Shown piece after piece: positions 308 through 16,098 of a stretch of 64,000 bases of DNA. Under the pieces are notes generated by a model. That model was not told the DNA's origin and made no database searches. It saw only the letters and a program-made list of their open reading frames with translations. Origin of the DNA: an uncultured Eubacteriales bacterium (GTDB lineage Bacteria; Bacillota; Clostridia; Christensenellales; Aristaeellaceae). The stretch is from NCBI GenBank assembly GCA_902781945.1, contig CACZLE010000008.1, positions 1 to 64,000 on the forward strand. Direction: 5' to 3'. The position numbers were made by a program, and so were the translations under genes. Positions within the stretch are counted from its first letter, which is position 1. Each line of letters starts with the position of its first letter.

Positions 308-1993
308 TCATTCATCCACCCAGTCCAGCTGGCACACCATCCCCGCCGTGATCACGTCCTCTTTTTTGAGCCAGCCGTAGGTCCCTTCGGGGTCCATGAA
401 GCAGCCCATCTCACCCCGGGGCACGCACACGTAGTACCAGTCGCCACTCTCCAGCACCAGGTGCATTTTCGCTCCCTCGGGCAGGTCCGTCACCGTGCCG
501 TCCAGCAGGCCCGTGCCTTTTTTGAGGGAAACGTCCTTTTTTGCTTTGGCCACGGCCTGGGGCTGGAGAAAATAATCGTTGCCGGTTCTCACATAGTTGG
601 AGGACACATAGCCCTTGAGGCTTCCCACTTCCGTGCGGTACCAGGGGTTGGGATCGCCGGGCAGCTCCTCCAGAATGGGGATCAGGGCTCCGGGCAGGAA
701 GGTGCCCAGATCCTTGGATCGGCTGGAGGTCTTGGCCCGCAGGTGTACGCCCACGGTCATGCCGTAGCCCGCCGGGATAAGCTCGGGCTGATCCGCTTCA
801 AATGCCGCCATGGTGGCGGGAAATTCCCGGATGTCCATGGCTCCAAGGTAGGGAATGACCTGCTGCGGCTTGATACAGGTGGTGATCAGCTTTCCGCCCC
901 GGTACAGCTTGGCCGTCCAGGGGTCCCAAAGCTCCTGTTTAATGCGCAGGGCGTCGCCGCCCTTTTCCACGCGCTCATACTGCATGATCTGGCAATAAGC
1001 GCGTCCACCGCCGTCCTTGTTGGTGATGATCACCTGGAATCGGGCGGTTTCGGTGTCCGACAGGGTGTAATCGATGCTGAAGCCGTCGTATGTATTGTGG
1101 ATCGCCAGGTCGCAGTCCGTGTACAGGGCGTTATCGCCCACGGGAATCATGGTCCATTGATCCCTGTCGTTGTCCAGGATCACCAGCAGCCGTTTCCCGT
1201 CCTTTTCAAAGGCCGCCAGCCCCAGACCGTAGGGCGTGCGGGCATGATCATTGAATTGCCCGTCATTCTGCCACAGCGCCCCGCACAGGCAGGTCCAGCC
1301 CGCCAGCCTGGGCTGGGAGAAGGCCTCCTTCAATTGCTCCGGCACTTCCTGATAGAAGTTTGTCCGGGTGACGGTGGCGCCTGTCATTTCCTGGACCTGC
1401 CACGCCTTGATACCGGCATCGGGTTTCTTTTCTTCTGTCAGGGTCAGACTGTTCTGCTCCAGTATTTCGTCCCGCAGGGAAACGAGCGCGGGGGTCCATT
1501 GATATTCCGGTCCGTAGCACCGGGTCAGGAAGGCCTGCAGGGCGTCCGCCCCGGTGGCGTAGGGATTTTGGATGGCGTCCAGCATGTTTTCGTTGTTGCT
1601 GAGGCCCAGATCGATGTTTGTTTGCTTGTAGGCGGCCCGGGCGTCGTCGTTCCAATCCGCCCACCAGTTGCCCTCCCGCGCCCGGCGCAGCATCTCGTTG
1701 ACGGCGCTTTCCCCGGGATAGGGGAGGTACTTTTCCTTGTAAAAGGGCGTGTCCCCACCGGTGGAGCCGTAGGAATCATAGAACAGCGTGTACACCCAGT
1801 CCGGGTGATCCTTGGGCCAGAAGCGCACGGTGTCGATGCCGTTGTCCTCAAATTCAAAGTTCTCCGCTTCCTCCACCGTGTAGCCGAACACTTCCGTCAG
1901 GTCGTTTTTCGCTCCCTGGATGGGATCGTATTCCGCCAGGGCTGTCGAAGCCGCCAGCAGCAGAAGAACCAATAAGAAGATTGTCTTTTTCAT
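308..1993 (-). CDS. Secreted protein with C-terminal SH3-like segment, BlaI-operon member
   Basis: A 561-residue exported protein. An N-terminal signal peptide (about residues 1-20, hydrophobic core then ALA before E) precedes a large region I cannot assign. The C-terminal 170 residues contain SH3-like segments (around 'GVHLRAKTSSRSKDLGTFLPG' style motifs, a WYRTEVGSLKGYVSSNYV-like stretch and a final GWLKKEDV), typical of bacterial SH3 repeats that bind cell-wall or protein ligands. The start is fixed by GAGG about 8 nt upstream. It lies 15 nt downstream of the BlaR1-type gene in the same direction, so it is probably the third gene of the blaI-blaR1 transcript and a target of that regulation. 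The function of the main domain is unknown. Confidence 0.8.
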   Translation of the reverse strand: MKKTIFLLVLLLLAASTALAEYDPIQGAKNDLTEVFGYTVEEAENFEFEDNGIDTVRFWPKDHPDWVYTLFYDSYGSTGGDTPFYKEKYLPYPGESAVNEMLRRAREGNWWADWNDDARAAYKQTNIDLGLSNNENMLDAIQNPYATGADALQAFLTRCYGPEYQWTPALVSLRDEILEQNSLTLTEEKKPDAGIKAWQVQEMTGATVTRTNFYQEVPEQLKEAFSQPRLAGWTCLCGALWQNDGQFNDHARTPYGLGLAAFEKDGKRLLVILDNDRDQWTMIPVGDNALYTDCDLAIHNTYDGFSIDYTLSDTETARFQVIITNKDGGGRAYCQIMQYERVEKGGDALRIKQELWDPWTAKLYRGGKLITTCIKPQQVIPYLGAMDIREFPATMAAFEADQPELIPAGYGMTVGVHLRAKTSSRSKDLGTFLPGALIPILEELPGDPNPWYRTEVGSLKGYVSSNYVRTGNDYFLQPQAVAKAKKDVSLKKGTGLLDGTVTDLPEGAKMHLVLESGDWYYVCVPRGEMGCFMDPEGTYGWLKKEDVITAGMVCQLDWVDE

Positions 1994-2008
1994 TGGTATG
2001 CCTCCTCG

Positions 2009-3610
2009 TCAGCCGTTGCCGTTCAGGCCGCCGTAATTCATGTTGTAATATACGATGCGGGTCTCCGGAGCGATCTGCACGATAAAGTAGGCTGACATGT
2101 CGTAGTTGGCGTCATAGGCCCGTTCGCTGTTCCAGCAGCCCACATCGATATAGCGGATGTTGCCCTTGAAATATTCCTGCACGGGCACAAAATAGTTTGC
2201 CTGCTTGGCCCGCTCGGGATTTACGTCCGCCAGCCAGGTTTTGAGATCGTCATAGAGAGCGCTCAGCGCCTCCTCACTGGGCGAGATGGACGAGGCAACG
2301 AAGTCCTGCTCCTGATCCTGGCTCCACAGGCCGATCACATTGCCGTTTATGTCAAAGTGAGCGTACAGCAGGTTTTCCTGGGCAGGCGTGCTGCCGAACA
2401 GAAAATATTGATCGTCCGTGCGCATATCCACAGCCCAGGTCAACCCTTCGTCCTTCTCCCGGTTCAGGGCCTCCATGCCCCACAGACTGTCCGCATAGGC
2501 GAAGGCATCCTCGTCATTCTTGATGACTGCGTCGCTCATGGACGTAACGCTGCGCAGCAGCCGTGGCGCGTAATGCACCTCCGCCGTGGCGAAGGCCCCC
2601 ACCAGGCACATGGAAGCCAGCGCCATAAAGCATACGCTCAGCCATTTCAGGGGTTTGCGGCCAGTCAGCACGGTCATCACCCGCTTTTTGAGCCGCTTGC
2701 CCGTCATGGTCATGCCCGTGGCCAGCACCGCCATGCCGGGGGCGTTGCGTTTGGCGGCGGCCAGCACCAGCACGCTGGCGTAGGCCTTGCGCCCCGCGCT
2801 GTCCATGGGCCTGGTCACCCGGTCGTCACAGCGCAGTTCGCCGTCCGTGCGGCTCATGGACGCAGCCAGCCACACCAGGGGATTGAACCAGTGCAGGGCC
2901 ACGCACAGCAGCCGCAGCACGTTCCACCAGTTATCGCAATTTTTGATGTGGCACACCTCGTGGGTCAGCACGTGGATGGCGTCCTGGGGCGAGGCGGTCA
3001 GCGGCAGGGCGATATAGGGCCGGAATACGCCCACCAGGCAGGCGCTGGGCAGAGGGTCTACGAAGTACACCGGCACGGGCTTGATATGCCGCTCCGCGCA
3101 CAGGGCCTCATACTGCTCCCGCAGATGGCCATAGATGGGATCGATGCGGTCCGCCCGCAGCCGCAGGCGGAAGCGCACGTTGCAATAGAGGGTCCACACC
3201 AGGATCGCAGCCACGCCAACAGCGTAGATCTTGGCCAGGGAGATACTCAGGGAAGCGTTCTCCACCTCCCAGGTAAGCTGATACGCCAGGTTGGCAGGCT
3301 TGACGAGCTTGGCCCGGTAGAGCAGGCTGCCCGCCTGCCCCAGGGCGTCGGTGAGGCGCACCTTCACCTGGCCCGCGATGGGCCGGATGGCGGTGTCCGC
3401 CGCAAAGGGCGAGCGGATGCCGTTGATCAGGGGATTGGGCAGCGTGATGGGCAGCAGCAGGCGGATGGCCACCAGCAGCCAGCCGAAGCACAGGGCCCCG
3501 TTGCCCAGGGGACGGCGAAAGAACCGCCGCAGAAGGATCATCAGCAGGATGGCGATGGAGGCCATGATGTTGGCCTCGATCAGAAAATTGTACAGCAAGG
3601 CGGTACGCAT
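2009..3610 (-). CDS. BlaR1/MecR1-family membrane metalloprotease sensor
   Basis: A 533-residue M56-family antirepressor/sensor. Several N-terminal membrane segments (about 10-30, 38-58, 127-147) precede the zinc protease motif HEVCH at 217-221, followed by the usual membrane helix (HWFNPLVWLAA) and an ELRCD motif. A further membrane helix lies near 320-345. Known members sense an envelope signal and, directly or not, cause cleavage of the BlaI repressor. Here the extracytoplasmic C-terminal part does not show the penicillin-binding SxxK domain of true BlaR1, so the signal is probably not a beta-lactam. RBS AGGAGG 8 nt before the ATG; 13 nt after blaI, hence co-transcribed. Confidence 0.88.
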   Translation of the reverse strand: MRTALLYNFLIEANIMASIAILLMILLRRFFRRPLGNGALCFGWLLVAIRLLLPITLPNPLINGIRSPFAADTAIRPIAGQVKVRLTDALGQAGSLLYRAKLVKPANLAYQLTWEVENASLSISLAKIYAVGVAAILVWTLYCNVRFRLRLRADRIDPIYGHLREQYEALCAERHIKPVPVYFVDPLPSACLVGVFRPYIALPLTASPQDAIHVLTHEVCHIKNCDNWWNVLRLLCVALHWFNPLVWLAASMSRTDGELRCDDRVTRPMDSAGRKAYASVLVLAAAKRNAPGMAVLATGMTMTGKRLKKRVMTVLTGRKPLKWLSVCFMALASMCLVGAFATAEVHYAPRLLRSVTSMSDAVIKNDEDAFAYADSLWGMEALNREKDEGLTWAVDMRTDDQYFLFGSTPAQENLLYAHFDINGNVIGLWSQDQEQDFVASSISPSEEALSALYDDLKTWLADVNPERAKQANYFVPVQEYFKGNIRYIDVGCWNSERAYDANYDMSAYFIVQIAPETRIVYYNMNYGGLNGNG

Positions 3611-3623
3611 AAAGCAGCCTCCT

Positions 3624-3980
3624 TTATTTGACGCTTTTCAGTATTTCCTGTATGTCCTCCGCCGTCAGCTGGCCGGACTGCACCAGATTATTGATCAGCA
3701 GCGAGGCGTCGCCCTTGAACACGTGGCGAAGGAATTTGCGGGTCTGGTCGGTGCTGGCCTCCTCCCGGGATACGGCGGGGGTATAGGTCTTGGCCGGGCC
3801 GCTGTCGTCCACCCGCACGGTGCCCTTTTCCTCCATGCGCTTGAGCAGGGTGATCACGGTGTGTCGGGTCCAGCCGGTGGCGGGCTCCAACTCATGGGTA
3901 ATTTCGCTCATGGTGCGGGGCGCTTTGTCCCATAATACTTCCAGAATTTTCCATTCGGCGTCGGTGCATTGTATCGGCAT
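3624..3980 (-). CDS. BlaI/MecI/CopY-family transcriptional repressor
   Basis: A 118-residue winged-helix repressor. The N-terminal stretch (ECIL-type opening CTDAEWKILEVLWD, then TMSEI, a HTVITLLKRMEEKG recognition region and a C-terminal dimer/cleavage part rich in charged residues) is typical of BlaI. The ATG at 3980 is chosen because GGAGG sits 8 nt upstream; an upstream TTG in frame has no such site. The protein is expected to bind the 16-bp operators at 4003-4018, 4026-4041 and 4854-4869, repressing its own operon and the 4076-4828 gene until the adjacent membrane protease is triggered. Confidence 0.92.
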   Translation of the reverse strand: MPIQCTDAEWKILEVLWDKAPRTMSEITHELEPATGWTRHTVITLLKRMEEKGTVRVDDSGPAKTYTPAVSREEASTDQTRKFLRHVFKGDASLLINNLVQSGQLTAEDIQEILKSVK

Positions 3981-4002
3981 CAATTTATCCTCCTTCAAAA
4001 GA

Positions 4003-4018
4003 GTGGACAGCTGTCTAC
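4003..4018. promoter_or_regulatory. BlaI-type operator 1
   Basis: GTGGACAGCTGTCTAC, an inverted repeat of the form GTAGAC-N4-GTCTAC with one mismatch, between the blaI promoter and its ribosome site. Its centre is 23 nt from that of operator 2. Confidence 0.8.
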
Positions 4019-4024
4019 GTTGAG

Positions 4025-4054
4025 AGTATACAACTGTCTACCATATTCTGTCAA
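4025..4054 (-). promoter_or_regulatory. blaI operon promoter
   Basis: On the minus strand TTGACA (4049-4054), an 18-nt spacer and TATACT (4025-4030). Operator 2 overlaps the -10 and operator 1 lies just downstream, the usual layout of an autoregulated bla-type promoter. Confidence 0.8.
4026..4041. promoter_or_regulatory. BlaI-type operator 2
   Basis: GTATACAACTGTCTAC, same GTAGAC-N4-GTCTAC pattern with one mismatch. It covers most of the blaI -10 element and part of the spacer, so occupancy should block RNA polymerase. Confidence 0.82.
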
Positions 4055-4075
4055 TAGGGCCAATTGTAAATTCTC

Positions 4076-4828
4076 TCAGCCGTTGCCGCTGAGGTCGGAC
4101 AGATGGAGGATTTCCAGGATTTCGCCGTTTTCCACGTCCACAAACACCCAGAAAACGGGGACATGGGTCTCCCTGACCGCCAAATGGACGGGAATCACCC
4201 GGCAGACCCGGCCATACACCCGCCTGTATTCCACCTCGTCCCATGCGCTGGTTTTCAGCGCCATGGCTTCTTTGATGCTCAGGTCAAAGCCGTCGATCAC
4301 CGCCCGGCGGGCCAGCAGCTCCATTTCCTTTTCATCCAGGCGGATTTCCGCGGGCGCGGGGCAGCTTTCCGGCGTATTCTGGGGGATGGGGTCGGCCTGG
4401 GGGTGCTTTTTCTCCCGGGCCTCCGCGATGGCCTGGAAGGGCTGCATCGTGGAGGTCTCCTCCACTATGCGCATCATCTCGCGCAGCTGATCCTTGCCCC
4501 ATACCTCGGCCTCGAAGCCCCCGTAAGTGCTCATGCCCTCATGGCTCCAGCGCGCCTGGGTCTTGTCCTCCGTCACCCGCACGGTATAGGTCCCCAGCAC
4601 CCAGGTAAAATCCTCCATGCCGGTAAAGGTCACGGTGAAGCCGGCCTCCGCCTCCTGTACAGCCCGGTCAAAATAGTCCAGCATGTCCCGGTCAATGCCG
4701 TATTTTTGATATATCGTCTTCTCCGCCGCCAGCGCGGCCCGCAGCTGGGGCGAAAAATCCCCTTTATCCGCCAGGGCGCAGGATGTCAGGGCGCACAGAA
4801 ACAAAAGCAGACAAATGAATCTTTTCAT
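4076..4828 (-). CDS. Secreted protein under BlaI-type control
   Basis: A 250-residue exported protein of unknown function. The start at 4828 is chosen over an upstream in-frame codon because GGGAGG lies just before it and the peptide then begins with a classic signal sequence (MKRF, hydrophobic core, cleavage after ALA). The mature part has an internal TFTGMEDFTWVLGTYTV-like segment and a C-terminal half resembling PepSY-like or YpeB-like repeats (VYGRVCRVIPVHLAV, then VFVDVENGEILEI), a pattern often found in small secreted inhibitors; this resemblance is weak. It has its own promoter and operator, separate from the blaI transcript. Confidence 0.8.
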   Translation of the reverse strand: MKRFICLLLFLCALTSCALADKGDFSPQLRAALAAEKTIYQKYGIDRDMLDYFDRAVQEAEAGFTVTFTGMEDFTWVLGTYTVRVTEDKTQARWSHEGMSTYGGFEAEVWGKDQLREMMRIVEETSTMQPFQAIAEAREKKHPQADPIPQNTPESCPAPAEIRLDEKEMELLARRAVIDGFDLSIKEAMALKTSAWDEVEYRRVYGRVCRVIPVHLAVRETHVPVFWVFVDVENGEILEILHLSDLSGNG

Positions 4829-4853
4829 CGGTATGTTCCTCCCGGTTTTTCTT

Positions 4854-4869
4854 GTAGACAACCGTCTAC
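4854..4869. promoter_or_regulatory. BlaI-type operator 3
   Basis: GTAGACAACCGTCTAC, a perfect GTAGAC-N4-GTCTAC inverted repeat immediately downstream of the promoter of the 4076-4828 gene. It matches operators 1 and 2 and links this gene to the BlaI-type repressor. Confidence 0.82.
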
Positions 4870-4872
4870 TGA

Positions 4873-4901
4873 ATCGTATCACCGGGGAACGGCCCTGTCA
4901 A
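4873..4901 (-). promoter_or_regulatory. Promoter of the 4076-4828 gene
   Basis: Minus strand TTGACA (4896-4901), 17-nt spacer, TACGAT (4873-4878). Operator 3 begins 4 nt downstream, near the expected transcription start. Confidence 0.75.
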
Positions 4902-4936
4902 TATCTGCCAGCCACTTGTTACATTTGTAAAAAGTA

Positions 4937-4965
4937 TTGACGTTCCTTATCCCCTGTGATATCCT
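4937..4965 (+). promoter_or_regulatory. Promoter of the 4998-5636 gene
   Basis: TTGACG (4937-4942), 17-nt spacer, TATCCT (4960-4965), 33 nt before the start codon. Confidence 0.6.
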
Positions 4966-4997
4966 GATGTTGACCGATTATTTATGAGGTGGTGCGC

Positions 4998-5636
4998 ATG
5001 AAATACGGAGAGAGCTTCTTCGATATCCTGTACCTGGTCTTTGCCATCCTGCTGGGCGTCCGCATGCTGCGGCAGCGCAAAAGCGCCGTTGGCCGCCTGA
5101 TGGGCTGGGCCGTGCTGATCCTGGGCTGCGGCGACGCCTTCCATCTGGTGCCCCGGGTGCTCAATTATTTTGTCAGCGCCGATTTCAGCGCCTGGCTGGG
5201 CATCGGCAAGCTGGTGACCTCCATCACCATGACGGTGTTCTATGTGCTCCTCTATCGCCTGTGGCTCAAGGTGTATAAGGAAAAGGAAAACCGGGCCGTT
5301 TCCATCGCCGTGTACGTCCTCACCGCCCTGCGGGTGGTGCTGTGCCTCATGCCCCAGAACCGCTGGATCGCCAACGAGAGCGACGTCACCTGGGGCATCA
5401 TCCGCAACGTGCCCTTCGTGCTGCTGGGCTGCCTCATCGTGTGGCTGTATTTCCGCAACCGCAATCAGGACAGCCGCCTGCGGCTGATCTGGCTCCTGGT
5501 CACCCTGTCCTTCCTCTTCTATATCCCCGTGGCCGTGGCCGCCGGTATCGTGCCCATGCTGGGCATGCTGATGCTGCCCAAGACCGTGTGCTACATGGTC
5601 ATGATCTGGATTTTCTGGAAGTATCCGGCAAAATAA
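4998..5636 (+). CDS. Hypothetical multi-pass membrane protein
   Basis: A 212-residue protein with about seven hydrophobic segments (near 8-22, 33-52, 68-88, 100-115, 128-145, 158-178, 190-208) and short charged loops (RQRKS, KVYKEKENR, RNRNQDSRLR). No catalytic motif is visible and I do not recognise the family. The ATG at 4998 is preferred to two GTG codons just upstream because GAGG lies 8 nt before it. It stands alone between its own promoter and a strong terminator, divergent from the BlaI-regulated gene. Confidence 0.75.
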   Translation: MKYGESFFDILYLVFAILLGVRMLRQRKSAVGRLMGWAVLILGCGDAFHLVPRVLNYFVSADFSAWLGIGKLVTSITMTVFYVLLYRLWLKVYKEKENRAVSIAVYVLTALRVVLCLMPQNRWIANESDVTWGIIRNVPFVLLGCLIVWLYFRNRNQDSRLRLIWLLVTLSFLFYIPVAVAAGIVPMLGMLMLPKTVCYMVMIWIFWKYPAK

Positions 5637-5647
5637 AGGCGGAAAAC

Positions 5648-5677
5648 AAAAAAGCTCCTGATTTCAGGGGCTTTTTT
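5648..5677. terminator. Bidirectional terminator
   Basis: A-tract, hairpin GCTCCTGA/TTCAGGGGC and T-tract. It ends the 4998-5636 gene on the plus strand and the tRNA-Leu transcript on the minus strand. Confidence 0.88.
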
Positions 5678-5762
5678 GGTGTCGGTAGCCGGGCTCGAAC
5701 CGGCACGCTCAAAGAGCATCAGATTTTAAGTCTGAGGCGTCTGCCAATTCCGCCATACCGAC
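5677..5762 (-). tRNA. tRNA-Leu (anticodon TAA)
   Basis: On the minus strand the acceptor stem GTCGGTA/TACCGAC, D-arm (TGGCGGAATTGGCAGACGC), anticodon arm TCAGA-CTTAAAA-TCTGA, a long variable arm (class II, as in tRNA-Leu) and a T-arm with GGTTCGAGCC are all present. Anticodon TAA reads UUA. The CCA end is encoded, and its last base coincides with the T-tract of the neighbouring terminator. Confidence 0.95.
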
Positions 5763-5773
5763 GCAGCAAAATG

Positions 5774-5802
5774 ATTATAGCATATTTTCCCGGGCGTTTC
5801 AA
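5774..5802 (-). promoter_or_regulatory. tRNA-Leu promoter
   Basis: Minus strand TTGAAA (5797-5802), 17-nt spacer, TATAAT (5774-5779), directly upstream of the tRNA. Confidence 0.8.
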
Positions 5803-5890
5803 TCACTCCCAATGGATTTTCTCTGTGCCGGTATAAATGCCTGTATCCGCCGCATATTGTGACCATCCGAAAAAACGGGAGGGATGAACG

Positions 5891-6883
5891 ATGGCTGGAT
5901 ACAGTCTTTTTATCGGGGCCAACACGGCCCGTGGATATGAGCACTTTTTACGGGAAATCGCCCCGGAGCGTGGCCGGGTCTGCGTGGTGCGGGGGCCCGC
6001 GGGCACGGAGCGCCATCGGCTCATTGCCCGCCTGGCGGACCAATGGGAGGCGGCGGGCTGGGAGGTGACGCGGTATCTGGACCCCGAGGACGCCCATCGC
6101 CTGGCGGCGGCGGTCAGCGGGGACTGGGCCATCCTGGATGGGGCAGCGCCCCATCAGATAGAGCCTGTGCCGGGGGCCATGCTCATTGATCTGAGCGCGG
6201 CCCTGGACCGCAACACCATGGAGGCCTGCCGCAAAGAGCTCGCCGAATTGCATCAGCGCATCCGAAATCTGCGCCTGCGGGCGGGCCGCTGCCTGCGGGC
6301 GGCGGAGGCGGCGTCGGAGGACGCGGCGGCGATTTATGCGGAAGCGGTGGACGCGGGCTCTGTGTATAATCTGCGGCTGGAGCTGTCCCGCTGGCTGACG
6401 GGCGCGCCGGGGCCGCGCCATCGGGCCTTTGCCCAGGCCGTGACGGCAGAGGGCGTCGTCCGCCTGCACGACAGTCTGGACAGGGAAAACCGGCGCGCGC
6501 TGCGCCTGCCCTGGGGCTATGACCCCAACGGCCTGCTGGCGCCCCTCGCCGCAGCCCTGCGGGCGAATGATACCGGCTTTGTGGCGGCCATGCAGCTGCT
6601 GGACGGCGGCAGGCTGGCCCATCTGTGCACCGCCACCCATAGCCTGACCACGGAGGTCACGGAGGAAAACTGGGATCTCAAATTCGATCAGACGGTATTG
6701 CAAGGGGAGCGGCAAGCCCTGCGCTTCGATCAGGCCGCCTGGGAGCTGGGGCTCCATCAGGCGGCGGAAGCCCTGAAGGAAGCCCGCCAGGCCCGGGACA
6801 GCCTGGAACGCCTCACCGCCGACGCCCTGGACAGGGACAAACAGGCGGAAATGATGGATCGGGCGACGGGCTATTTTCGCTGA
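5891..6883 (+). CDS. P-loop-like protein related to PRK06851-type ATPases, degenerate Walker A
   Basis: A 330-residue cytoplasmic protein. The opening (FIGANTARGYEHF) and the order of segments (RGPAGTERHR at 34-43, then a Cys/Tyr strand, then WAILDGAAPHQIEP) match the start of the PRK06851-type hypothetical ATPases that I recall from Firmicutes. In those the P-loop reads GxxGTGKS; here the lysine and following serine are replaced by E-R-H, so nucleotide hydrolysis is doubtful. The rest is helical and Ala/Arg-rich with a probable coiled coil near 105-150. RBS GGAGGG before ATG. Family assignment is by memory of motifs, not by a search. Confidence 0.6.
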   Translation: MAGYSLFIGANTARGYEHFLREIAPERGRVCVVRGPAGTERHRLIARLADQWEAAGWEVTRYLDPEDAHRLAAAVSGDWAILDGAAPHQIEPVPGAMLIDLSAALDRNTMEACRKELAELHQRIRNLRLRAGRCLRAAEAASEDAAAIYAEAVDAGSVYNLRLELSRWLTGAPGPRHRAFAQAVTAEGVVRLHDSLDRENRRALRLPWGYDPNGLLAPLAAALRANDTGFVAAMQLLDGGRLAHLCTATHSLTTEVTEENWDLKFDQTVLQGERQALRFDQAAWELGLHQAAEALKEARQARDSLERLTADALDRDKQAEMMDRATGYFR

Positions 6884-6985
6884 AAGAAGAAAGAAATGCT
6901 AATACGGCTTGCAGGAATTTTGCAAACCCGGGAGAATGTAACATAGGACAGTTGGCAACAGATCGGTTTTGTGGAAGGAAAGAAA

Positions 6986-7408
6986 ATGGACGATTATAAA
7001 TATGTTCGCATCCAGGGCCTGGAGCTGGCTGAAAACACCATGTACGCCAAGGGGATTTTCAGCATGTGCATGCAGCTGATCCAGAACGACGTGATGGACG
7101 AGGAGGACGCCGCCCTGTATCGGGAGATCGACAGCTGGTTTGCCGATATCCTGCCCTTTCCGCCCCAATGCCGGAATCAGGAAAAGGTGGTCTGCTTCTT
7201 CAAGACCGAAAACGCCCGGGAAATGATGAAGATGATCCGGCCCGCGATGTGGCTGCTGGAAAAATATCATCATCCCTATTATCTGGTGTATACCAACACC
7301 CCCGGCGAGATCGTCTACGAGGATCAATACCAGGTGGCCGTGCGGGTGCCCGGCGTGTTGCAAATCGAAAAATTGCAGGAGAGCTGGAGCCCAAAAGAAA
7401 AAGAGTGA
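6986..7408 (+). CDS. Hypothetical protein
   Basis: A 140-residue soluble protein, acidic in the first half (DVMDEEDAALYREID) and with three cysteines. I do not recognise it. ATG at 6986 follows GGAAGGAA; the upstream GTG in frame overlaps that site. It sits 16 nt before a secreted SH3 protein and could be co-transcribed with it. Confidence 0.65.
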   Translation: MDDYKYVRIQGLELAENTMYAKGIFSMCMQLIQNDVMDEEDAALYREIDSWFADILPFPPQCRNQEKVVCFFKTENAREMMKMIRPAMWLLEKYHHPYYLVYTNTPGEIVYEDQYQVAVRVPGVLQIEKLQESWSPKEKE

Positions 7409-7424
7409 TACGGAGGAAACGAAC

Positions 7425-7907
7425 ATGAAAAAGATTGGTTGGCTTTCGATGCTGGCGCTGCTCCTGCTGGCTGGCAGTCTGGCCTGCGCCCAGGCGGATA
7501 TCCTGCCGCCCCATGGGGAGGGACAGATCGGTCTGCAGGCCGTGGTGCCGTGCGAGGAGCTGACCCTGCGCCAGGAGCCCAGCGCCGCCTCCAAGGCGGT
7601 GGAGACGCTGCGTTACGGAGACCTGCCCATCGTGATCCGACAGGAGGACGGCTGGGCCTACTGCGCGCTGGGGGATTCCGAGGACGCGCCCATCGGCTGG
7701 GTGAACGCGGATTATATCGCCATCGATCCCGCCTGGTATCGGACGGACGCCAAAACCCCGGTCTACGCCTGGAATGATACGGCGGCGCTGAAGGTGGCCC
7801 TGCTGGACAAGGACACTACCCTGCCCATCCTGCGGGAGGAGGGCAATTGGCTCATCGTCAGCCTGCGGGGCGCGACTGGCTGGATCCAGAAAAGTGATCG
7901 GGATTGA
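7425..7907 (+). CDS. Secreted protein with two SH3-like domains
   Basis: A 160-residue exported protein: signal peptide (1-24, cleavage near ACAQA), then two SH3-like units, about 40-95 (LTLRQEPSAASKAVETLRYGD ... GWVNADYI type motifs) and 105-158 (KTPVYAWNDTAALKVALL ... GATGWIQKSD). Such units commonly hold secreted proteins at the cell wall. RBS GGAGG. It resembles the C-terminal part of the 308-1993 protein in domain type. Confidence 0.82.
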   Translation: MKKIGWLSMLALLLLAGSLACAQADILPPHGEGQIGLQAVVPCEELTLRQEPSAASKAVETLRYGDLPIVIRQEDGWAYCALGDSEDAPIGWVNADYIAIDPAWYRTDAKTPVYAWNDTAALKVALLDKDTTLPILREEGNWLIVSLRGATGWIQKSDRD

Positions 7908-8036
7908 TATAAGTGCCTAATCAGAGAAAAATCCGCGCTTTCTTCTGAGAAGAAAGCTGCAAAGAAGCACCGGGCGAACCGGCTTGAAAACAACAACAAA
8001 CAATTTGCGCCTGTAACTTGAATGTCGCAGCGAGAG

Positions 8037-8253
8037 CTTCCGGGCATAAGAAAACCGGCGGCAGTCCGAAAAAATGAGTAAACTCATTTTTCTCGGCCTG
8101 ACGCCGGTTTTTGCTGTGCGCTTTGCGCACAGCACGCCAGCGAAGCTGGCAGCCCGGAAGTGGTGGGTTGCGGCTTTGTTTCTTGTTGCGTCAAGCTGCT
8201 ATTATGACGACAAAGGCAGGTTTTCTGCTTCTCTTTTGACGCAAAAGAGAAGC
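8037..8253. repeat. Multi-hairpin intergenic repeat, copy 2
   Basis: No gene is supported in 7908-8288. An outer inverted repeat (CTTCCGGGC 8037-8045 with GCCCGGAAG 8152-8160) encloses a long nested hairpin 8051-8111 (AAAACCGGCG/CGCCGGTTTT with an inner AAAAATGAGT/ACTCATTTTT), a perfect hairpin 8112-8134 (TGCTGTGCGC/GCGCACAGCA, loop TTT) and 8136-8150 (GCCAGC/GCTGGC). A further hairpin follows at 8227-8253 (GCTTCTCTTTT/AAAAGAGAAGC, loop GACGC). The nested hairpin with its T-run could also stop transcription from the gene ending at 7907. Layout parallels copy 1 at 74-243. Confidence 0.6.
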
Positions 8254-8288
8254 GTATTCCTTTCCGGTCATATTTCAGTTTGCAGCTT

Positions 8289-9119
8289 TTATGGCCAGGT
8301 CTCCCCGGCTGCCTGCCGCCAGGCCGCCAGAAAATCCGCAAAGGTGGCATAGCGCTTTTCCCGGTCCTCCTCGCAGGCCCGGCAGGCCACCCGGTAAAGG
8401 GGCTCTCCCGCCGTCCAGGTCACGCGCTCGCGCAGGACGCGGTCCCCGAAAAAGAAGAAGGCCAGCGCGCCCATGGCATATTGGGTCGCCCGCCCGTCCA
8501 GGGGCTCGCCCAGACGGTATTCCTCGGGGGACAGGAAAAAGCTGGAGCCGGGCATGCGCCCCAGATCGTTGACGGCGGGCGCGGTCCGATACAGATCGAT
8601 GTCGCAAACGGTAATATTGCCCGCGGTCCAGTCCGCCGTCAGGCCGCCTTCATCAAAGCCCAGGGGCTGATAGCCCTTTTGCAGCGCGAACAGATGAAAA
8701 TCAAACACCCGGTCGATCATGCCCAGCTGCGTCAGCAGCGGCTGCCACCTCAGCTGAACGCGTGCGTCGTTTTCCCGCAGGTTCAGGCCCTCCGGCCATT
8801 GGAAGATGGCCATGTATCCGCCAGCTGCCGAGCCGTGCCCTTGCAGCTTGATCAGCGCCGGATGGGGATAGAGAGCCTCGTAGACCGGCATGGCGCGGCG
8901 CAGGAAGCCCACGGCCTCCTCTGCCGGGATGCCCCCGGTCAAGGGCGCGCCCGCGTAGCGGATCAGCAGCCGCCCGTAGCGCGGCCCCTCCACGCCGAAG
9001 CACAGCAGCCCTTTTTCCGGCTGTGCCCATACGGCGAAGGGCTCCCCGTAATTGAGGATGAAATCAAAATCCCGGGGCGTATCGAGCGCCACCGGCACGC
9101 CGAAGATATCCCACGTCAT
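8289..9119 (-). CDS. Protein-kinase-fold protein, catalytic residues uncertain
   Basis: A 276-residue protein. The C-terminal half follows the order seen in kinase-like proteins: GNITVCDIDLYR (a CDID in place of DFG), NDLGRMPGSSFFLSPEEYRLGEPLD (activation loop and APE-like segment) and the late helix YRVACRACEEDREKRYAT. Where the catalytic Asp would be, the sequence reads QPLGFDEGG, so activity is uncertain. The ATG at 9119 overlaps the MATE stop codon by 4 nt and is preferred to an upstream codon. Last gene of the minus-strand group 14232 to 8289. Function unknown; small-molecule or protein phosphotransferase are both possible. Confidence 0.65.
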   Translation of the reverse strand: MTWDIFGVPVALDTPRDFDFILNYGEPFAVWAQPEKGLLCFGVEGPRYGRLLIRYAGAPLTGGIPAEEAVGFLRRAMPVYEALYPHPALIKLQGHGSAAGGYMAIFQWPEGLNLRENDARVQLRWQPLLTQLGMIDRVFDFHLFALQKGYQPLGFDEGGLTADWTAGNITVCDIDLYRTAPAVNDLGRMPGSSFFLSPEEYRLGEPLDGRATQYAMGALAFFFFGDRVLRERVTWTAGEPLYRVACRACEEDREKRYATFADFLAAWRQAAGETWP

Positions 9120-10486
9120 GGCGCGGCCTCCCCGTCGCTGCGGGTCACGTTCTTGATCCATTTATCGCCCCGCAGCCGGAAAAACGCGATGATCCATTTG
9201 AAGCATTGGTCGATGCGGGTGCAGAAGTAAATGGCCGCCAGCGGCCAATGAAACACGAAGGCCGCCAGGGCGGAGAGGGGCAGCACCACCAGCCAGCCGC
9301 AGATCAGGTCCACCAGCATCACGAACCGGCTGTCGCCCGCCCCGCGGTTGATGCCCACAAAGCAGGAGGCGTGGTAGGTGGTGCCAAGCAGCGTGAAGGA
9401 GCAAATGCCGATCATCTTGACCGCCAGGGCGTAGGTGTCCGGCTCCAGATGGTACAGCGACACAAAGGGCCGCCGCAGCAGAAATACCACCGCGCACATC
9501 GCCACGCCGATGCCCGCAAACATCACCTGGATGGTGCCGGAGTATTCCCGCACCCGCCGGTAATCGCCCGCGCCCACGGCCTTGCCCACCACCACGCAGG
9601 CGCCGCCCGCCAGGGCGAAGGTAAACAGCGTGCCCAGGTTCATCATCATGTCGGTGACGGCGGTGGCGTCGATCATGGCCTTGCCCATCTGGCCCAGGAT
9701 CACGGCCTTGAGCAGCCCCACCAGCGCCCATTGGGCGTCGGTCAGCCCCACGGGCAGGCCGTAGTGGGCATAGTCCGTCCAGGCCCATTTTTCGCCCTTT
9801 GTCAAATCGGCGGGGCGGATGCGCAGCGCCTTTTGCACCCGGAACAGATACAGCCATACCACCGCGGCCTCCGCCGTCCGGGCGATCACCGTGGCCAGGG
9901 CCGCGCCCCGCACGCCCAGGGCCGGCAGGCCCAGATGGCCGAAGATCAGCACATAGTTGAGCCCGATGTTGGTGAACAGCGACAGCACCGTGGTGTACAG
10001 CGTCACCCGCACCACCTCGACGCCCTTCAGCATACCCACCATGGCGCTGGTGAGGGCCAGAGGGATGTAGCTCAGGCACACGATGGGCAGATACTCAAGG
10101 GCCAGATCGATGACGGCGGTTTCGCCTTTGTTGATCACCAGGGACAAAAGCGCCCGGGGAAACAGCAGCACCGCCGCCACGGCCATCAGCGCGAACAGCA
10201 GGCATGCCGCCGCCGACACCGCGCACACCGTGCGGATGCGCTTTTCATCCCGCTTGCCCCAGTATTGGCTGATCAGCACCACCGCGCCGGTGGCCAGGCC
10301 CGTCAGCCCCGCCGTGACGAAGGTGGTGATGGCGTTGCTCTGGGACACCGCCGACAGGGCGTTTGCCCCCGTGCGGGTCACCATCACGTTGTCCGCCATG
10401 ACCACCAGCAGGTTCATGGCGCTCTGAAAGGCCGCGGGCAGGGAAAGCCGCAGGATGGTTTTGTAAAACTGCTTGTCCTTAACCAT
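9116..10486 (-). CDS. MATE-family multidrug/organic cation exporter
   Basis: A 456-residue integral membrane protein with 12 predicted segments in two related halves, typical MATE length. The N-terminal SLPAAFQSAMNLLVVMADNVMV and the later QSNAITTFVTAGLTGLATGAVVLISQYWG are MATE hallmarks. These proteins export drugs, dyes or metabolites using H+ or Na+ gradients; the substrate here is unknown. It overlaps the upstream DUF1016 gene by 8 nt and the downstream kinase-like gene by 4 nt, so the three are probably translated from one message. Confidence 0.9.
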   Translation of the reverse strand: MVKDKQFYKTILRLSLPAAFQSAMNLLVVMADNVMVTRTGANALSAVSQSNAITTFVTAGLTGLATGAVVLISQYWGKRDEKRIRTVCAVSAAACLLFALMAVAAVLLFPRALLSLVINKGETAVIDLALEYLPIVCLSYIPLALTSAMVGMLKGVEVVRVTLYTTVLSLFTNIGLNYVLIFGHLGLPALGVRGAALATVIARTAEAAVVWLYLFRVQKALRIRPADLTKGEKWAWTDYAHYGLPVGLTDAQWALVGLLKAVILGQMGKAMIDATAVTDMMMNLGTLFTFALAGGACVVVGKAVGAGDYRRVREYSGTIQVMFAGIGVAMCAVVFLLRRPFVSLYHLEPDTYALAVKMIGICSFTLLGTTYHASCFVGINRGAGDSRFVMLVDLICGWLVVLPLSALAAFVFHWPLAAIYFCTRIDQCFKWIIAFFRLRGDKWIKNVTRSDGEAAP

Positions 10487-11579
10487 TTTCTTCTGAGATC
10501 CATTCCTTTAGTTTTTGCTGGAGCAGTTTTTTATCCGGCAGGTAGAGCGCGTATTGAGAGGCGAATATATTGCTGTTTTCGGGCAGGGTGATTTCGACCA
10601 GCGCGTCATTTTTTTCCTTGCACAGCAGTATGCCGATGGTTTGATTTTCCTCTGGAATTTTCACATACCGATCATAGTAATTGACGTACATCTGCATCTG
10701 CCCCAGATCCTGATGCGTCAGTTTATCGATTTTCAGGTCAATCAGCACGTAGCAGCGCAGGAGCCTGTTGTAGAAAACGAGATCAACATAATAGTTATCT
10801 TCATTAAAGGAAAACCGCTTCTGTCTTGCTTCAAAAAGATACCCCTTGCCCAACTCCAGCAGGAATTTTTGCAGTTTATCGATGATTGCCGTTTCCAGAT
10901 CGGTTTCGGAATAGCTGGAGCGCTCTTCCAGACCAAGGAACTCCAAAACCGTTGGCTGTTTGATGATATCTTCGGGCTTTGTGATCACATTCCCCTCGGA
11001 CGCAAGCAGCAGGACTTTTTCTTTATCCCGGCTGAGGGCCAGGCGTTCATACAGACTGGCGTTATATTGCCGTTGAAGCGTGCGGATGCTCCAAAGCCCT
11101 TTTGTGGCCTCGATTTCATAAAAACGCCGTTCATCGGCGTTGCCGATGCGCATGAGCTGCAAATAGTGCGACCAAGGCAAGGTGAACGGCGGCTGATCCT
11201 TCAATTGGGTAAACAGTGTTTGGCTTTTTTGAACGGCAAAAAGGGTAAACAGCGTTTGGCTGATCCGATCTTTATATTCAGAGTAGAACCGTCGGCAGTT
11301 TTTCAAGGTTTCCCGGCTGTATCCACGTCCAAATTCATTCGTCAGCGCTTCTGATAAGCGCTCGATCACATGGGCGCCGTACTGGGCGCGGTCCAGCCCA
11401 TGCTGCTGTTCTTCGACGATCCATCTTCCCAGCGCGTAGTTGGTCAGCAGTTCCACCATATTGACCTGCTGTACAGCCAGGCTTCGCGCGTATCGGATCA
11501 ATTCGATGGAATGCGAGCAGAGAGCATCAACCCCGGTGATGATAGGCGCGGCGGACGGGAGCGATTCTTTGTTTTCCAA
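10479..11579 (-). CDS. DUF1016 / YhcG-type PD-(D/E)XK nuclease family protein
   Basis: A 366-residue protein. The N-terminal half (VEMLTNY-like stretch, GRWIVEEQQ, LSEALTNEFGRGYSRETLKNCRRFYSEY) and the C-terminal nuclease core (FSFNEDNYYVDLVFYNRLLRCYVLIDLKID, then LGQMQMYVNYYD and GILLCKEKND) are diagnostic of this family. D-x(n)-D-x-K of the PD-(D/E)XK fold is visible in YVDLVF...IDLKI. Members are often found near defence or mobile genes. The start is a TTG with GAGGTG 7 nt upstream. Base composition is clearly more AT-rich than its neighbours, suggesting acquisition by transfer into this operon. Confidence 0.85.
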   Translation of the reverse strand: MENKESLPSAAPIITGVDALCSHSIELIRYARSLAVQQVNMVELLTNYALGRWIVEEQQHGLDRAQYGAHVIERLSEALTNEFGRGYSRETLKNCRRFYSEYKDRISQTLFTLFAVQKSQTLFTQLKDQPPFTLPWSHYLQLMRIGNADERRFYEIEATKGLWSIRTLQRQYNASLYERLALSRDKEKVLLLASEGNVITKPEDIIKQPTVLEFLGLEERSSYSETDLETAIIDKLQKFLLELGKGYLFEARQKRFSFNEDNYYVDLVFYNRLLRCYVLIDLKIDKLTHQDLGQMQMYVNYYDRYVKIPEENQTIGILLCKEKNDALVEITLPENSNIFASQYALYLPDKKLLQQKLKEWISEENG

Positions 11580-11609
11580 TGTTGTTCACCTCGATTTTGA
11601 AAAGCCTGC

Positions 11610-13262
11610 TCAGATTTCCATATCCTCGGCAACGCGCAGCATAAAGGAAAACTCGCTGCCCTCGCCCTGGGTGCTGCGGGCGGTGACGCGGCTGTCCAGA
11701 CGCTGCATGATCTCCTGGGCGATGGCCAGCCCCAGGCCGCTGCCCTGGGAATTGTGGCTGTGATCGGCCTGATGGAAGCGGTCAAAGGCGTGCTCCAGGG
11801 TATATTCGTCCATGCCCACGCCCGTATCCCGCACGGCAAAGCGCAGGAACCGGGCCTCCTGCTGCACGCTCAATGTCACCTGGCCGCCTGCGGGGGTGAA
11901 TTTGATGGCGTTGTCCAGCAATATGGTCAATACCTGCTGGATGCGGTCCTCGTTGGTAACGACATTCGGCAGGGCTTCCGGCACGTCCAGGATCAGCCGC
12001 ACGCCCTTTTTATCGGCCAGGGTCTTGGCACGGTCATGGACTTCATAGGCAATCTCCAGGGCGTCCGTTTCTTCCATGGCGAAGGCCGCCGCGCTGGACT
12101 GCAGGTGGCTCAGCTCCAGCAGGTCGTTGACCAGCCGGGACAGGCGCAGCACCTCGCTCAATATCATTTCATAGTAGCGGTGCCGTTCCTCTTCGCTGGT
12201 CACCAGCCCGTCCCGCAATCCCTCCGTGATGCCCCGCATGCTGGAAAGGGGCGTGCGCAGCTCGTGGGAAATATTGGCCACGTATTCCCGGCGGGTGCGC
12301 TCCAGCCGCTCGTGCTCGGTCACGTCCCGCAGCACCGCCAGGGCGCCCGCGCCGGAGGACAGGGGGCGGAACACCGCCAGCACCGTGGTTTCGCCGATTT
12401 GCAGCAGCAAATCCTCCTGGGGCTCCTCCGCAGCCTTGCGCAAAAGGGAGAGCACCCGCAGGGTATATTCGCTGTCACGGCCCCGCAGCAGCCTTACCGC
12501 CGCCTGGTTTTCCCGCAGGATATCCCCGGCGCGGTCCACCGCCAGCACGCCTTCGTCCAGGCTTTCCAGCACCCGGCTCAGGGTGTCGCGCTCGTAGGTC
12601 AACTCGCCCATGGACTGGGTGAGCCGGTGGGACATGTGGTTGAAGGCCCGCCCCAGGGAACGCAGCTCCACCGGCAGCTTTTCGGTGATCTCCACCTGCT
12701 CGCCGTCGCTCAGCCGCTGGGCGGCGGAGGAGAGCATGTCCACGGGCTGCATGATGCGCAGGGCCAATAGGATATAGATGAGCAGCGTCAGCGCCAGGGC
12801 GATGATGCCGTATTGCAGCAGCAGGGTGCGGAAGCCCACGTTGGCCTGCTCGCTGCTTTTCAGGGCCTTGCCCGCGACGACGCTGCCGATATCCAGCCGC
12901 AGCCCCATCACCAGCATGCCGGGCAGATCGTCCACTTCCGTGATCTCCCGGTCCAGCTTTGCCGGGTCCACTTGGGGCGCGCCGGGGGTGGCGGCCAGCA
13001 GCGTTCCGTTTTCATCATAGAGGATCAAAAACACCTCTCCGGGGTTCAGCCGGGGATCCACCGCCCTGTCCAGATCGGGTCCTTTTTCCGCCAGCAGCAT
13101 TTCGCCGGTGCGGACGGCCTGGGTGACCTCCTGGGCGATGAGCCTGCGGGTGGTATCCCGGGCCAGGGCGCTGGACACGAAATACAGGGCGGTGATCAGC
13201 ACCACGCTGTACAGCGTCAGGATGACCAGAATGGTGCGCGAAAAGCGCCTAAACCGCAGCAT
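11610..13262 (-). CDS. Membrane sensor histidine kinase (PhoR/WalK type)
   Basis: A 550-residue kinase. Membrane segments near 10-32 and 149-168 flank an extracytoplasmic sensor of about 115 residues; HAMP (about 170-222), a PAS-like domain (225-320), HisKA with the phospho-acceptor His at 333 in ANISHELRTPLSS, then HATPase_c with the N-box (NAIKFTPAG), DTGVGM and GSGLGLAI. It overlaps the response regulator gene by 14 nt. Likely senses an envelope or phosphate-type signal and phosphorylates that regulator. Start supported by GGAGG 9 nt upstream. Confidence 0.93.
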   Translation of the reverse strand: MLRFRRFSRTILVILTLYSVVLITALYFVSSALARDTTRRLIAQEVTQAVRTGEMLLAEKGPDLDRAVDPRLNPGEVFLILYDENGTLLAATPGAPQVDPAKLDREITEVDDLPGMLVMGLRLDIGSVVAGKALKSSEQANVGFRTLLLQYGIIALALTLLIYILLALRIMQPVDMLSSAAQRLSDGEQVEITEKLPVELRSLGRAFNHMSHRLTQSMGELTYERDTLSRVLESLDEGVLAVDRAGDILRENQAAVRLLRGRDSEYTLRVLSLLRKAAEEPQEDLLLQIGETTVLAVFRPLSSGAGALAVLRDVTEHERLERTRREYVANISHELRTPLSSMRGITEGLRDGLVTSEEERHRYYEMILSEVLRLSRLVNDLLELSHLQSSAAAFAMEETDALEIAYEVHDRAKTLADKKGVRLILDVPEALPNVVTNEDRIQQVLTILLDNAIKFTPAGGQVTLSVQQEARFLRFAVRDTGVGMDEYTLEHAFDRFHQADHSHNSQGSGLGLAIAQEIMQRLDSRVTARSTQGEGSEFSFMLRVAEDMEI

Positions 13263-13953
13263 CGGCTTTTTCCTCCAGCTTATAGCCCACGCCGTATACA
13301 GATTTTAATTGCAGGCTGCTGTTTTCCGGCAGCTTTTTGCGGATGCGCTTGACGGAGGTATCCACCACCCGGCTGTCCCCGTCAAAATCGAAGCCCCAGA
13401 TGGAGTCCAGCAATTGCTCCCGGGTGAACACCTGGCCCAGATGGGCGGCCATCAGGTGCAGGATTTCCACCTCTTTGGGGGACATGAGCACCTTTTCGCC
13501 CTCCACCTTCACCTCGTAGCAGGCCAGGTTGATTTCTGTGTTCCCCGTGCGCAGCAGGCTCTGTTCCGGGGCGGTCTCCAGCATGTTCATGCGGCGGAAG
13601 ATCACCTGGATACGGCTCACCACCTCCCGGGGGCTGAAGGGCTTGACGATGTAGTCGTCCGCCCCCAGGGCGAAGCCCAGCAGGCGGTCCACCTCCTCGC
13701 CCTTGGCGGTCAGCATGATGATGGGCGTCATGCTGACGGCGCGGATGTCCGCGCACACCTGGGTGCCGCTGCGCCCGGGCATCATGATGTCCAGGATCAC
13801 CAGGTCGGGCCGGATGCGGGTGAAGGCCTCCATCACGTCGCTGCCCCGAAAGACGGAATAGGTGTCATAGCCGTCCCTTGTCAGATACATGCGCAACGAT
13901 TCGTGGATGCCCACCTCGTCGTCGGCGATGAGGATCAGTTTGTTATGGGCCAT
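13249..13953 (-). CDS. OmpR/PhoB-family response regulator
   Basis: A 234-residue regulator: receiver domain with acidic pocket (IADDE at 9-13), phospho-acceptor Asp55 in VILDIMMPG, T/K switch residues (MLTAKGEE) and KPFSPRE, then a C-terminal winged helix (EINLACYEVKV ... SPKEVEILHLMA ... DSRVVDTSVKRIRKKL). It should bind direct repeats at target promoters after phosphorylation by the adjacent kinase. ATG at 13953 follows AAAGGAGG; a longer reading frame upstream has no such site. Confidence 0.94.
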   Translation of the reverse strand: MAHNKLILIADDEVGIHESLRMYLTRDGYDTYSVFRGSDVMEAFTRIRPDLVILDIMMPGRSGTQVCADIRAVSMTPIIMLTAKGEEVDRLLGFALGADDYIVKPFSPREVVSRIQVIFRRMNMLETAPEQSLLRTGNTEINLACYEVKVEGEKVLMSPKEVEILHLMAAHLGQVFTREQLLDSIWGFDFDGDSRVVDTSVKRIRKKLPENSSLQLKSVYGVGYKLEEKADAAV

Positions 13954-13974
13954 ACGCGGCCTCCTTTGCAATGC

Positions 13975-14232
13975 TTAAAAGTTCATCCAGATAAAGTTCT
14001 TGAGCCCGACTGCCGCCTCGTCCTCGTCCGGGCCCTCCACCGTGACGGTGATCAGGTCGCCCTGCCTGATGCCCAGGCCCATGAGCTTCAGGATCCGCTT
14101 GGCGTCGGCGGCCCTGTCCTCCTTGCGGACGGTGACGGCGGAAGTATATTTTTCCGCCTCCCGCACCAGCAGCCCCGCGTGCCGGGCGTGCAGGCCCACC
14201 GGGGCCTTGATGGTGTACATAAAGGAACGCAT
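13975..14232 (-). CDS. HPr-like phosphocarrier protein
   Basis: An 85-residue HPr-fold protein. The active-site His is at residue 15 (VGLHARHAG), so phosphorylation by enzyme I is plausible. The regulatory Ser46 of Firmicutes HPr is replaced by Arg (DAKRILKLMGLG), so HPr-kinase control and CcpA co-repression should not apply. This is the reverse of Crh, which keeps Ser46 and loses His15. It lies 21 nt before the response-regulator gene and may be its operon leader gene. Likely a specialised PTS branch or signalling protein rather than the main HPr. Confidence 0.85.
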   Translation of the reverse strand: MRSFMYTIKAPVGLHARHAGLLVREAEKYTSAVTVRKEDRAADAKRILKLMGLGIRQGDLITVTVEGPDEDEAAVGLKNFIWMNF

Positions 14233-14259
14233 GGGGGATCGCCTCCCTTGCTGATAAAA

Positions 14260-14268
14260 TCCCAGCTT
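14260..14268 (-). promoter_or_regulatory. Extended -10 promoter of the HPr-regulator-kinase group
   Basis: Minus strand TGATATAAT, an extended -10, about 28 nt before the HPr-like start codon. No good -35 is seen. Confidence 0.55.
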
Positions 14269-14310
14269 CATTATATCAGAACATGAGCCCCCGGGAAAGA
14301 GCTTTTTTTG

Positions 14311-14339
14311 TTGCGGCCCGGGCGGCTTCGTGCTACAAT
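14311..14339 (+). promoter_or_regulatory. Promoter of the VTC-domain gene
   Basis: TTGCGG (14311-14316), 17-nt spacer, TACAAT (14334-14339), 34 nt before the start codon at 14373. Confidence 0.55.
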
Positions 14340-14372
14340 AGACAGGAAATATACACGTGGAAAGGAGCGCCT

Positions 14373-15041
14373 ATGCGGCACGAGATCAAAAGCCGCCTGT
14401 CCCCGGCGGAGGTCCCTGGCCTGCGGGCCCGGCTGCAGGCGGTGATGACCCGGGATCCCCATGCCCGGGCGGACGGCACCTATGATATTCATAGTGTCTA
14501 TCTGGATACGCCCAGCCGCCGGGCGCTGACTGAAAAGCAGGTGGGCATGCCGGTGCGCCACAAATACCGCGTGCGCTATTATAACGACAATCGGGATTTC
14601 TTCCGCCTGGAGCGCAAAAGCAAGGTGGGCTCCCTGTGCGACAAGGTGGGCTGCTCCCTGACCCGGGAGGAGGCGGAGCGGCTCATGGCGGGGGATATGG
14701 ACTGGATGGCCCGGGACGACAGGCCCCTGCTGCGGGAAGTCTTTCTGCGCAATCGCGCCGAACTGCTGGCCCCCAGCGTGCAGGTGCACTACACCCGGGA
14801 GGCCTATATCTACGGCCCCGGCAACGTGCGGGTCACCCTGGATTCGTGCATCCGCACGGGCCTGTGGGATCCGGATTTCCTGGATATTTCCCAGCCCCGC
14901 ATCCGCACCCAGGGGGATGATTTTGTGCTGCTGGAGGTCAAGTTTGACGCCTACCTGCCCGAAATCATCCGGGATATCACCTGCTGTCATTGCCGTCCCA
15001 TGGGCTTTTCCAAGTTCGAGTCCTGCCATTCATTTGATTAA
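14373..15041 (+). CDS. VTC-domain (polyphosphate polymerase-like) protein
   Basis: A 222-residue protein of the VTC/CYTH-like tunnel fold. It shows HEIKSRL at the start, YDIHSVYLDTP, RHKYRVRYYN, FRLERKSKVG, VHYTREAY, VRVTLDS and a late LLEVKFDAYLP: the alternating basic and acidic residues that line the triphosphate tunnel. Yeast Vtc4 makes polyphosphate from ATP; bacterial members are presumed similar but few have been tested. ATG follows AAAGGAG. The DUF4956 membrane protein gene starts 12 nt downstream, the usual partner in bacteria, suggesting a membrane-associated polymer or transport unit. Confidence 0.87.
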   Translation: MRHEIKSRLSPAEVPGLRARLQAVMTRDPHARADGTYDIHSVYLDTPSRRALTEKQVGMPVRHKYRVRYYNDNRDFFRLERKSKVGSLCDKVGCSLTREEAERLMAGDMDWMARDDRPLLREVFLRNRAELLAPSVQVHYTREAYIYGPGNVRVTLDSCIRTGLWDPDFLDISQPRIRTQGDDFVLLEVKFDAYLPEIIRDITCCHCRPMGFSKFESCHSFD

Positions 15042-15053
15042 GGAGTACAAGGT

Positions 15054-15731: not shown

Positions 15732-15747
15732 AAACGCGCCGCTGTTC

Positions 15748-15776
15748 TTGACATGGCGAAGCGAACTGATTATAAT
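15748..15776 (+). promoter_or_regulatory. Consensus promoter of the putative antisense RNA
   Basis: TTGACA (15748-15753), exactly 17 nt, TATAAT (15771-15776): a perfect sigma-A promoter with no convincing gene downstream, pointing head-on at the 29-residue toxin gene. Confidence 0.85.
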
Positions 15777-15782
15777 ATAAGG

Positions 15783-15875: not shown

Positions 15876-15879
15876 TTGC

Positions 15880-15969: not shown

Positions 15970-16034
15970 CCGGCATCACCTGCCTTCCTTGGTAGTCCGA
16001 CAGGCGCTGTCCCGCGTATTATCTTCTCTGCCCT

Positions 16035-16050: not shown

Positions 16051-16056
16051 ATCGCC

Positions 16057-16085: not shown

Positions 16086-16098
16086 CGAAATAACGCGT

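Follow-up and report, generated by a model that had tools for sequence, protein, structure and literature searches.

A probable BlaI/M56 signalling operon with a predicted tandem PepSY-like sensor ectodomain in a family of gut Clostridia

Sensors of the BlaR1 type are regarded as sensors of beta-lactams, and genome annotation often lists M56/BlaI pairs among the resistance genes. In the BlaI-BlaR1 and MecI-MecR1 systems of S. aureus and B. licheniformis, a repressor and an M56 zinc protease sensor (HExxH...E) share an operon, and the operators are 16 bp long with an ACA-NN-TGT core. CopY/CopR belongs to the same repressor superfamily but is metal-responsive; two operators before the operon are common, and the 16-bp CopY consensus RNYKACANNYGTMRNY already allows a GACA half-site (PMC7253601). 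In C. thermocellum, BlaI_0696 binds GTCTAT inverted repeats which are likewise paired before its own operon; the operon comprises BlaR1-like sensors and hypothetical proteins and the regulon is very small (PMC8457756).

Here, we describe a related locus in a 64-kb stretch of DNA (64,000 bp, hereafter the window) from an uncultured Eubacteriales bacterium. We consider it likely that the locus encodes an autoregulated BlaI/M56 transmembrane signalling operon with a tandem PepSY-like sensor, driving secreted SH3 and PepSY-like proteins, and that what the system senses is probably the cell envelope or secreted proteins, not antibiotics. All genes of the locus lie on the minus strand. The operon begins with a blaI-type repressor gene (3624..3980, start ATG at 3980; P0001, 118 aa), followed by the gene of an M56 membrane metalloprotease sensor (2009..3610; P0002, 533 aa) and, in third place, the gene of a secreted SH3_3 protein (308..1993; P0004, 561 aa; PF08239, E=9e-11), which stands behind the sensor gene in most relatives as well. 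A separate adjacent gene (4076..4828; P0003, 250 aa) encodes a secreted or lipoprotein-like protein that is predicted to be tandem PepSY-like. Its most likely start is the ATG at 4828, with a signal peptide.

P0001 is a Penicillinase_R protein (PF03965, aa 6-117, E=1.8e-28, 99.6 bits against a cut-off of 22.6), a match to a winged-helix and a dimerisation domain, and it is the only such protein detected in the genome by profile search. Its sequence relatives include MecI (1sd6) and BlaI (1sd4), and it scores below the NCBIfam cut-offs for both BlaI and CopY. A CopY function was not supported by the equivalog test (74.6 bits vs 121.95): unlike CopY, the repressor has no C-terminal CxC, and its neighbours encode the M56 protein and secreted proteins, with no copper genes, copper export included, nearby. 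The recognition-helix region GWTRHTVITLLKRM is almost invariant among the BlaI proteins of blaI-M56 operons. In contrast to the bla/mec systems, the repressor cleavage site is not kept, as the MecI cleavage pair N-F aligns with N-L in P0001 and varies among relatives.

Two sites of the form GTAGAC-N4-GTCTAC, each with one mismatch and both on the minus strand, occupy the blaI promoter (4025..4054, minus strand; TTGACA-18-TATACT), which is kept in relatives. The right half of operator 1 (4026..4041; GTAGACAGTTGTATAC) is also the -10 box TATACT, and operator 2 (4003..4018; GTAGACAGCTGTCCAC) lies over the transcription start region, 23 bp away centre to centre. Operator 3 (4854..4869, minus strand; GTAGACGGTTGTCTAC) has no mismatch, is the sole perfect palindrome of this form in the genome, and immediately follows the -10 box in the promoter of the 4076 gene (4873..4901, minus strand; TTGACA-17-TACGAT). 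As that gene most likely starts at 4828, the operator falls in the 5' leader region and not within coding sequence, as it would with the longer GTG ORF. All three sites thus sit on promoter-like sequences of the sigma-A type, two promoters in total. With up to two mismatches allowed, the window holds three sites vs a mean of 0.39 in shuffled sequences, and three sites were reached in none of 100 shuffles. In the 2.91 Mb of the host assembly (~90% complete), operators 1-3 are the only sites with at most one mismatch; under a first-order Markov model, the expected number is 0.67 for 2.91 Mb and 0.0002 for a given 900 bp. The initial annotation, which listed a blaI-blaR1-SH3 operon and three such operators over two promoters, is therefore confirmed in its gene calls by the Pfam matches (PF03965, PF05569 and PF08239) and in its operators by the genome scan. 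Two further features occur on this side of the locus: a palindrome, TTACATTTGTAA, at ~4910-4930, between the 4076 gene promoter and the promoter-like sequence of a divergent membrane protein at 4989, and a tRNA-Leu (anticodon TAA) at 5677-5762 on the minus strand.

The operator consensus had been described as departing from the classic TACA/TGTA bla box, which is not supported as such on closer comparison. Extended by one base per half, it reads GTAGACA-NN-TGTCTAC and keeps both the 16-bp length and the ACA-NN-TGT core shared by bla, mec and cop boxes. Given this core, the GACA half-site of CopY and the GTCTAT repeats of BlaI_0696, the window operator belongs to an already described class and does not constitute a new one. 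Differences from the described boxes remain: the outer half-sites are GTAG/CTAC, unlike those of bla/mec boxes, the outer bases at positions 3 and 14 differ from those of CopY/CopR, and the C. thermocellum motif is read with five bases between half-sites in the part of the report available (PMC8457756). That part also describes no SH3, PepSY-like or sigma partners and contains no analysis of sensor ectodomains (PMC8457756).

The arrangement is conserved in the family. The order TTGACA, a spacer of 5-7 bp, site 1 and site 2 recurs in the blaI promoter at 23 of 26 orthologous loci, with 21, 23 or 24 bp (about two helical turns) between the site centres. One locus (L040) has one site only, another (L037) has two sites without a clear -35 box, and in a third (L043, genome G054), where blaI follows the sensor gene, the site pair precedes the sensor gene instead. 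Site 1 reads GTAGACANNTGTATAC in the relatives, with an invariant left half and a right half that deviates to TATACT or TACACT; the dual use of this right half as -10 box accounts for the imperfect site 1 of the window, next to a perfect operator 3. When 30 genomes were scanned with GTAGACRNNYGTNNAC, nearly all matches were the pair at the blaI-M56 operon; apart from it, the scan gave a single match in G100, three in G139 and operator 3 in the genome of the window. The usual regulon would thus be the operon itself, to which the window's species has added one target. Conservation of the palindromes at the repressor's own promoter agrees with the earlier proposal of a BlaI-type repressor with matching operators; the motif assigned to BlaI, GTAGACANNTGTCTAC, was assigned by position and similarity. 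About one third of the blaI promoters contain, in addition, a TTGTAA(A)CAA-like element phase-locked ~18-29 bp upstream of the -35 box (window ~4062-4073; L018, L023, L027, L030, L038, L039, L041 and L045), possibly the site of a second regulator or an UP element.

The protease half of the sensor resembles that of BlaR1 and MecR1, with which the window system shares the HExxH...E zinc site, the membrane topology and the repressor-sensor operon. P0002 contains an M56 domain (PF05569, aa 9-313, E=8.3e-40, 137 bits) with HEVCH and E258, and H217, E218, H221 and E258 are invariant in the sensor family. It is the sole M56 protein above the family cut-off in the genome. In a Foldseek comparison, the protease half of its predicted structure matched cryo-EM structures of BlaR1 from S. 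aureus (8exs, E=6.9e-6). A transmembrane segment (~aa 322-340) is followed by an ectodomain (~aa 345-533) ending in GNG. This ectodomain differs from its counterpart in BlaR1 and MecR1: the NCBIfam model blaR1_generic scores 93 bits against a cut-off of 400 and covers only aa 11-341, no Pfam or NCBIfam domain was found in the ectodomain, and SxxK and KTG, which together with SxN mark a penicillin-binding (class D-like) sensor domain, are absent from it on sequence inspection. Among 20 family sensor ectodomains, none has KTG and none has SxxK together with KTG.

AlphaFold2 predicts the P0002 ectodomain as two repeats of one helix and four strands (tandem alpha-beta4; pLDDT ~45-86). The best PDB match was the tandem PepSY of YpeB (5boi; Foldseek, probability 0.97, but E 0.11 and TM-score 0.17-0.32). 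Pfam PepSY gave no match in the window proteins and weak or passing matches in relatives of the 4076 protein's neighbourhood. With moderate certainty, we regard the ectodomain as tandem PepSY-like rather than penicillin-binding; here it is joined to an M56 protease, unlike the module in YpeB and PepSY-domain proteins. The earlier view of a sensor lacking a penicillin-binding domain is thus upheld both by the absence of the motifs from the sequence and by the structure prediction of the C-terminus that had been suggested as its check, which resembles YpeB. By the tests made here, P0002 is not a beta-lactam sensor, and the system is a variant of BlaI/M56 signalling.

The 4076 protein, P0003, is likewise predicted as tandem alpha-beta4 with the topology of the sensor ectodomain (AlphaFold2), and Foldseek matches it to C. 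difficile CD1622 (4exr) and to YpeB (5boi). Direct sequence homology between the two was sought and rejected, with no meaningful BLAST match and an hhalign probability of only 20%; predicted fold and C-terminus suggest the link. Most relatives of P0003 form the ectodomain of a protein whose gene immediately follows an ECF sigma gene, with an example in the same genome (contig C51), and such anti-sigma-like proteins also occur downstream of the blaI-sensor operon at L110 and L116. P0003 differs from ECF anti-sigma factors in that it lacks a cytoplasmic part and has a signal peptide. In same-genus relatives, its homologue lies elsewhere in the genome and is absent from the blaI loci examined, so that its position beside blaI, under a separate operator, seems to have been acquired recently.

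The same distribution allows a narrower interpretation, in which operator 3 and the 4076 gene are outside the regulon, the palindrome is a chance occurrence or a relic, and autoregulation is confined to blaI-M56-SH3, as in most relatives. Apart from the pair before blaI, most relatives have no such site, the 4076 gene is missing from that locus in the same-genus relatives examined, and one operator alone was considered too little for regulation in C. thermocellum (PMC8457756). However, operator 3 is a perfect match that directly follows a good -10 box. The protein behind it shares the predicted topology and the C-terminus of the sensor ectodomain, and we consider this interpretation unlikely.

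In the mechanism we favor, BlaI dimers would bind operator 1 at the -10 box and operator 2 at the start region of their own promoter, as well as operator 3 at the start of the adjacent 4076 gene. An extracytoplasmic event at the ectodomain, probably a secreted or cell-wall-bound partner binding to it or being lost, would then activate the cytoplasmic zinc protease. By analogy with BlaR1, the protease would cleave BlaI and so derepress the three operon genes and the gene of the PepSY-like protein. The SH3 and PepSY-like proteins would have their function at the cell surface, possibly with feedback to the sensor. Gene context and a natural fusion suggest the operon's own SH3 protein as the best candidate partner. 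In Candidatus Limiplasma pullicola (L129), an M56 sensor carries, fused to its end, the N-terminal domain of the SH3 protein family (hmmsearch i-Evalue 6.9e-27), which suggests contact between ectodomain and SH3 protein. The fusion lies at L129:8001-10241, and no blaI relative or operator was found near the fused sensor.

An envelope response unrelated to beta-lactams, as the initial annotation had proposed, is the most likely reading, although as an inferred and not a demonstrated one. The lack of a penicillin-binding domain may also be compatible with indirect induction through wall damage by beta-lactams. The locus could accordingly be a diverged bla system whose ectodomain reads such damage from peptidoglycan fragments, the activity of hydrolases or contact with a beta-lactamase, the response being made by unlinked resistance genes. 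Its BlaI/M56 logic is that of bla systems, and the window's genome encodes four PF13354-like proteins. A peptidoglycan fragment also takes part in induction in B. licheniformis (PMC3305447), and the C. thermocellum authors too read BlaI regulons as beta-lactam responses (PMC8457756). Against this, the ectodomain has no penicillin-binding motif, and the operon contains no beta-lactamase and, unlike bla/mec, no beta-lactamase or PBP2a target. An operator-bearing beta-lactamase was looked for in the genome scan and none was found; in the assembly, ~90% complete, no beta-lactamase-like gene is near any operator with at most one mismatch. As no such operator occurs beyond the window locus, the beta-lactamase-like genes fall outside the predicted regulon, and we consider a diverged bla system unlikely. 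That the operators belong to another winged-helix repressor while BlaI acts elsewhere would fit an assignment made by position and similarity and the second conserved element, TTGTAA(A)CAA, upstream of several blaI promoters, but it is very improbable, since the site pair tracks the blaI-M56 operon over many genera, the recognition-helix region hardly varies and the genome has no second PF03965 protein.

For the envelope-sensing operon that we prefer, the C-terminus of the sensor is a further feature. GNG ends 22 of 26 non-redundant family sensors, and the last three columns carry 3.4-3.6 bits, against <2 bits in each column from -4 to -25. The GNG codons are at 2012-2020 (sensor) and 4079-4087 (4076 protein) in the window, and the sensors at L017-L046 and L115-L135 end in GNG almost invariably. 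GNG is also found on PepSY-like secreted proteins and on ECF anti-sigma ectodomains; distant M56 proteins outside the family lack it, bar one unrelated exception. Descent of divergent ectodomains alone cannot explain conservation of the last three residues only, and selection on an exposed C-terminus is therefore the simplest reading. In the genome of the window, only four plausible proteins end in GNG: the sensor, the 4076 protein, the paralogue of the latter on C51 and, on C32, an SH3-like protein. A proteome-wide tag was considered and rejected: GGNAAYGGNTRA is no commoner than its reversed control in the own genome, only 4 of the 23 matches there end a plausible gene, and in the sampled loci of genus g26, most of the enrichment lies elsewhere than at the ends of genes.

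Several genera of the family have an ECF sigma gene inserted in the blaI-M56-SH3 operon. It follows the sensor gene at L098, L102, L105, L107, L108, L112, L113 and L116 (Pfam-confirmed for L112 and L116), usually between the sensor and SH3 genes, and the switch can thus feed a sigma cascade. Our literature search returned no matching report of M56 with PepSY or of M56 with ECF sigma factors. As a tentative proposal, M56/BlaI sensors and ECF anti-sigma factors, unrelated to each other as transmembrane signalling proteins, might present PepSY-like ectodomains with a GNG tag to one extracytoplasmic factor, e.g., a PDZ-type or C-terminal processing protease, with secreted GNG proteins competing for it, so that the BlaI and sigma branches would form one envelope-surveillance network.

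Gut Clostridia of this family combine the same repressor-protease switch with a different kind of ectodomain, itself variable, and with secreted proteins of the wall type, to which several genera add an ECF sigma factor. This is a warning against annotating M56/BlaI pairs as resistance genes. The sensors form a natural set of swapped domains with which to study activation of the M56 protease by an ectodomain, and the strongly conserved C-terminal GNG signature is a testable feature. In one relative (L248, contig G112:C31), positions 1148-16232 contain a blaI-M56 operon together with several GNG-ending secreted proteins and at least three pairs of ECF sigma and membrane-protein genes.
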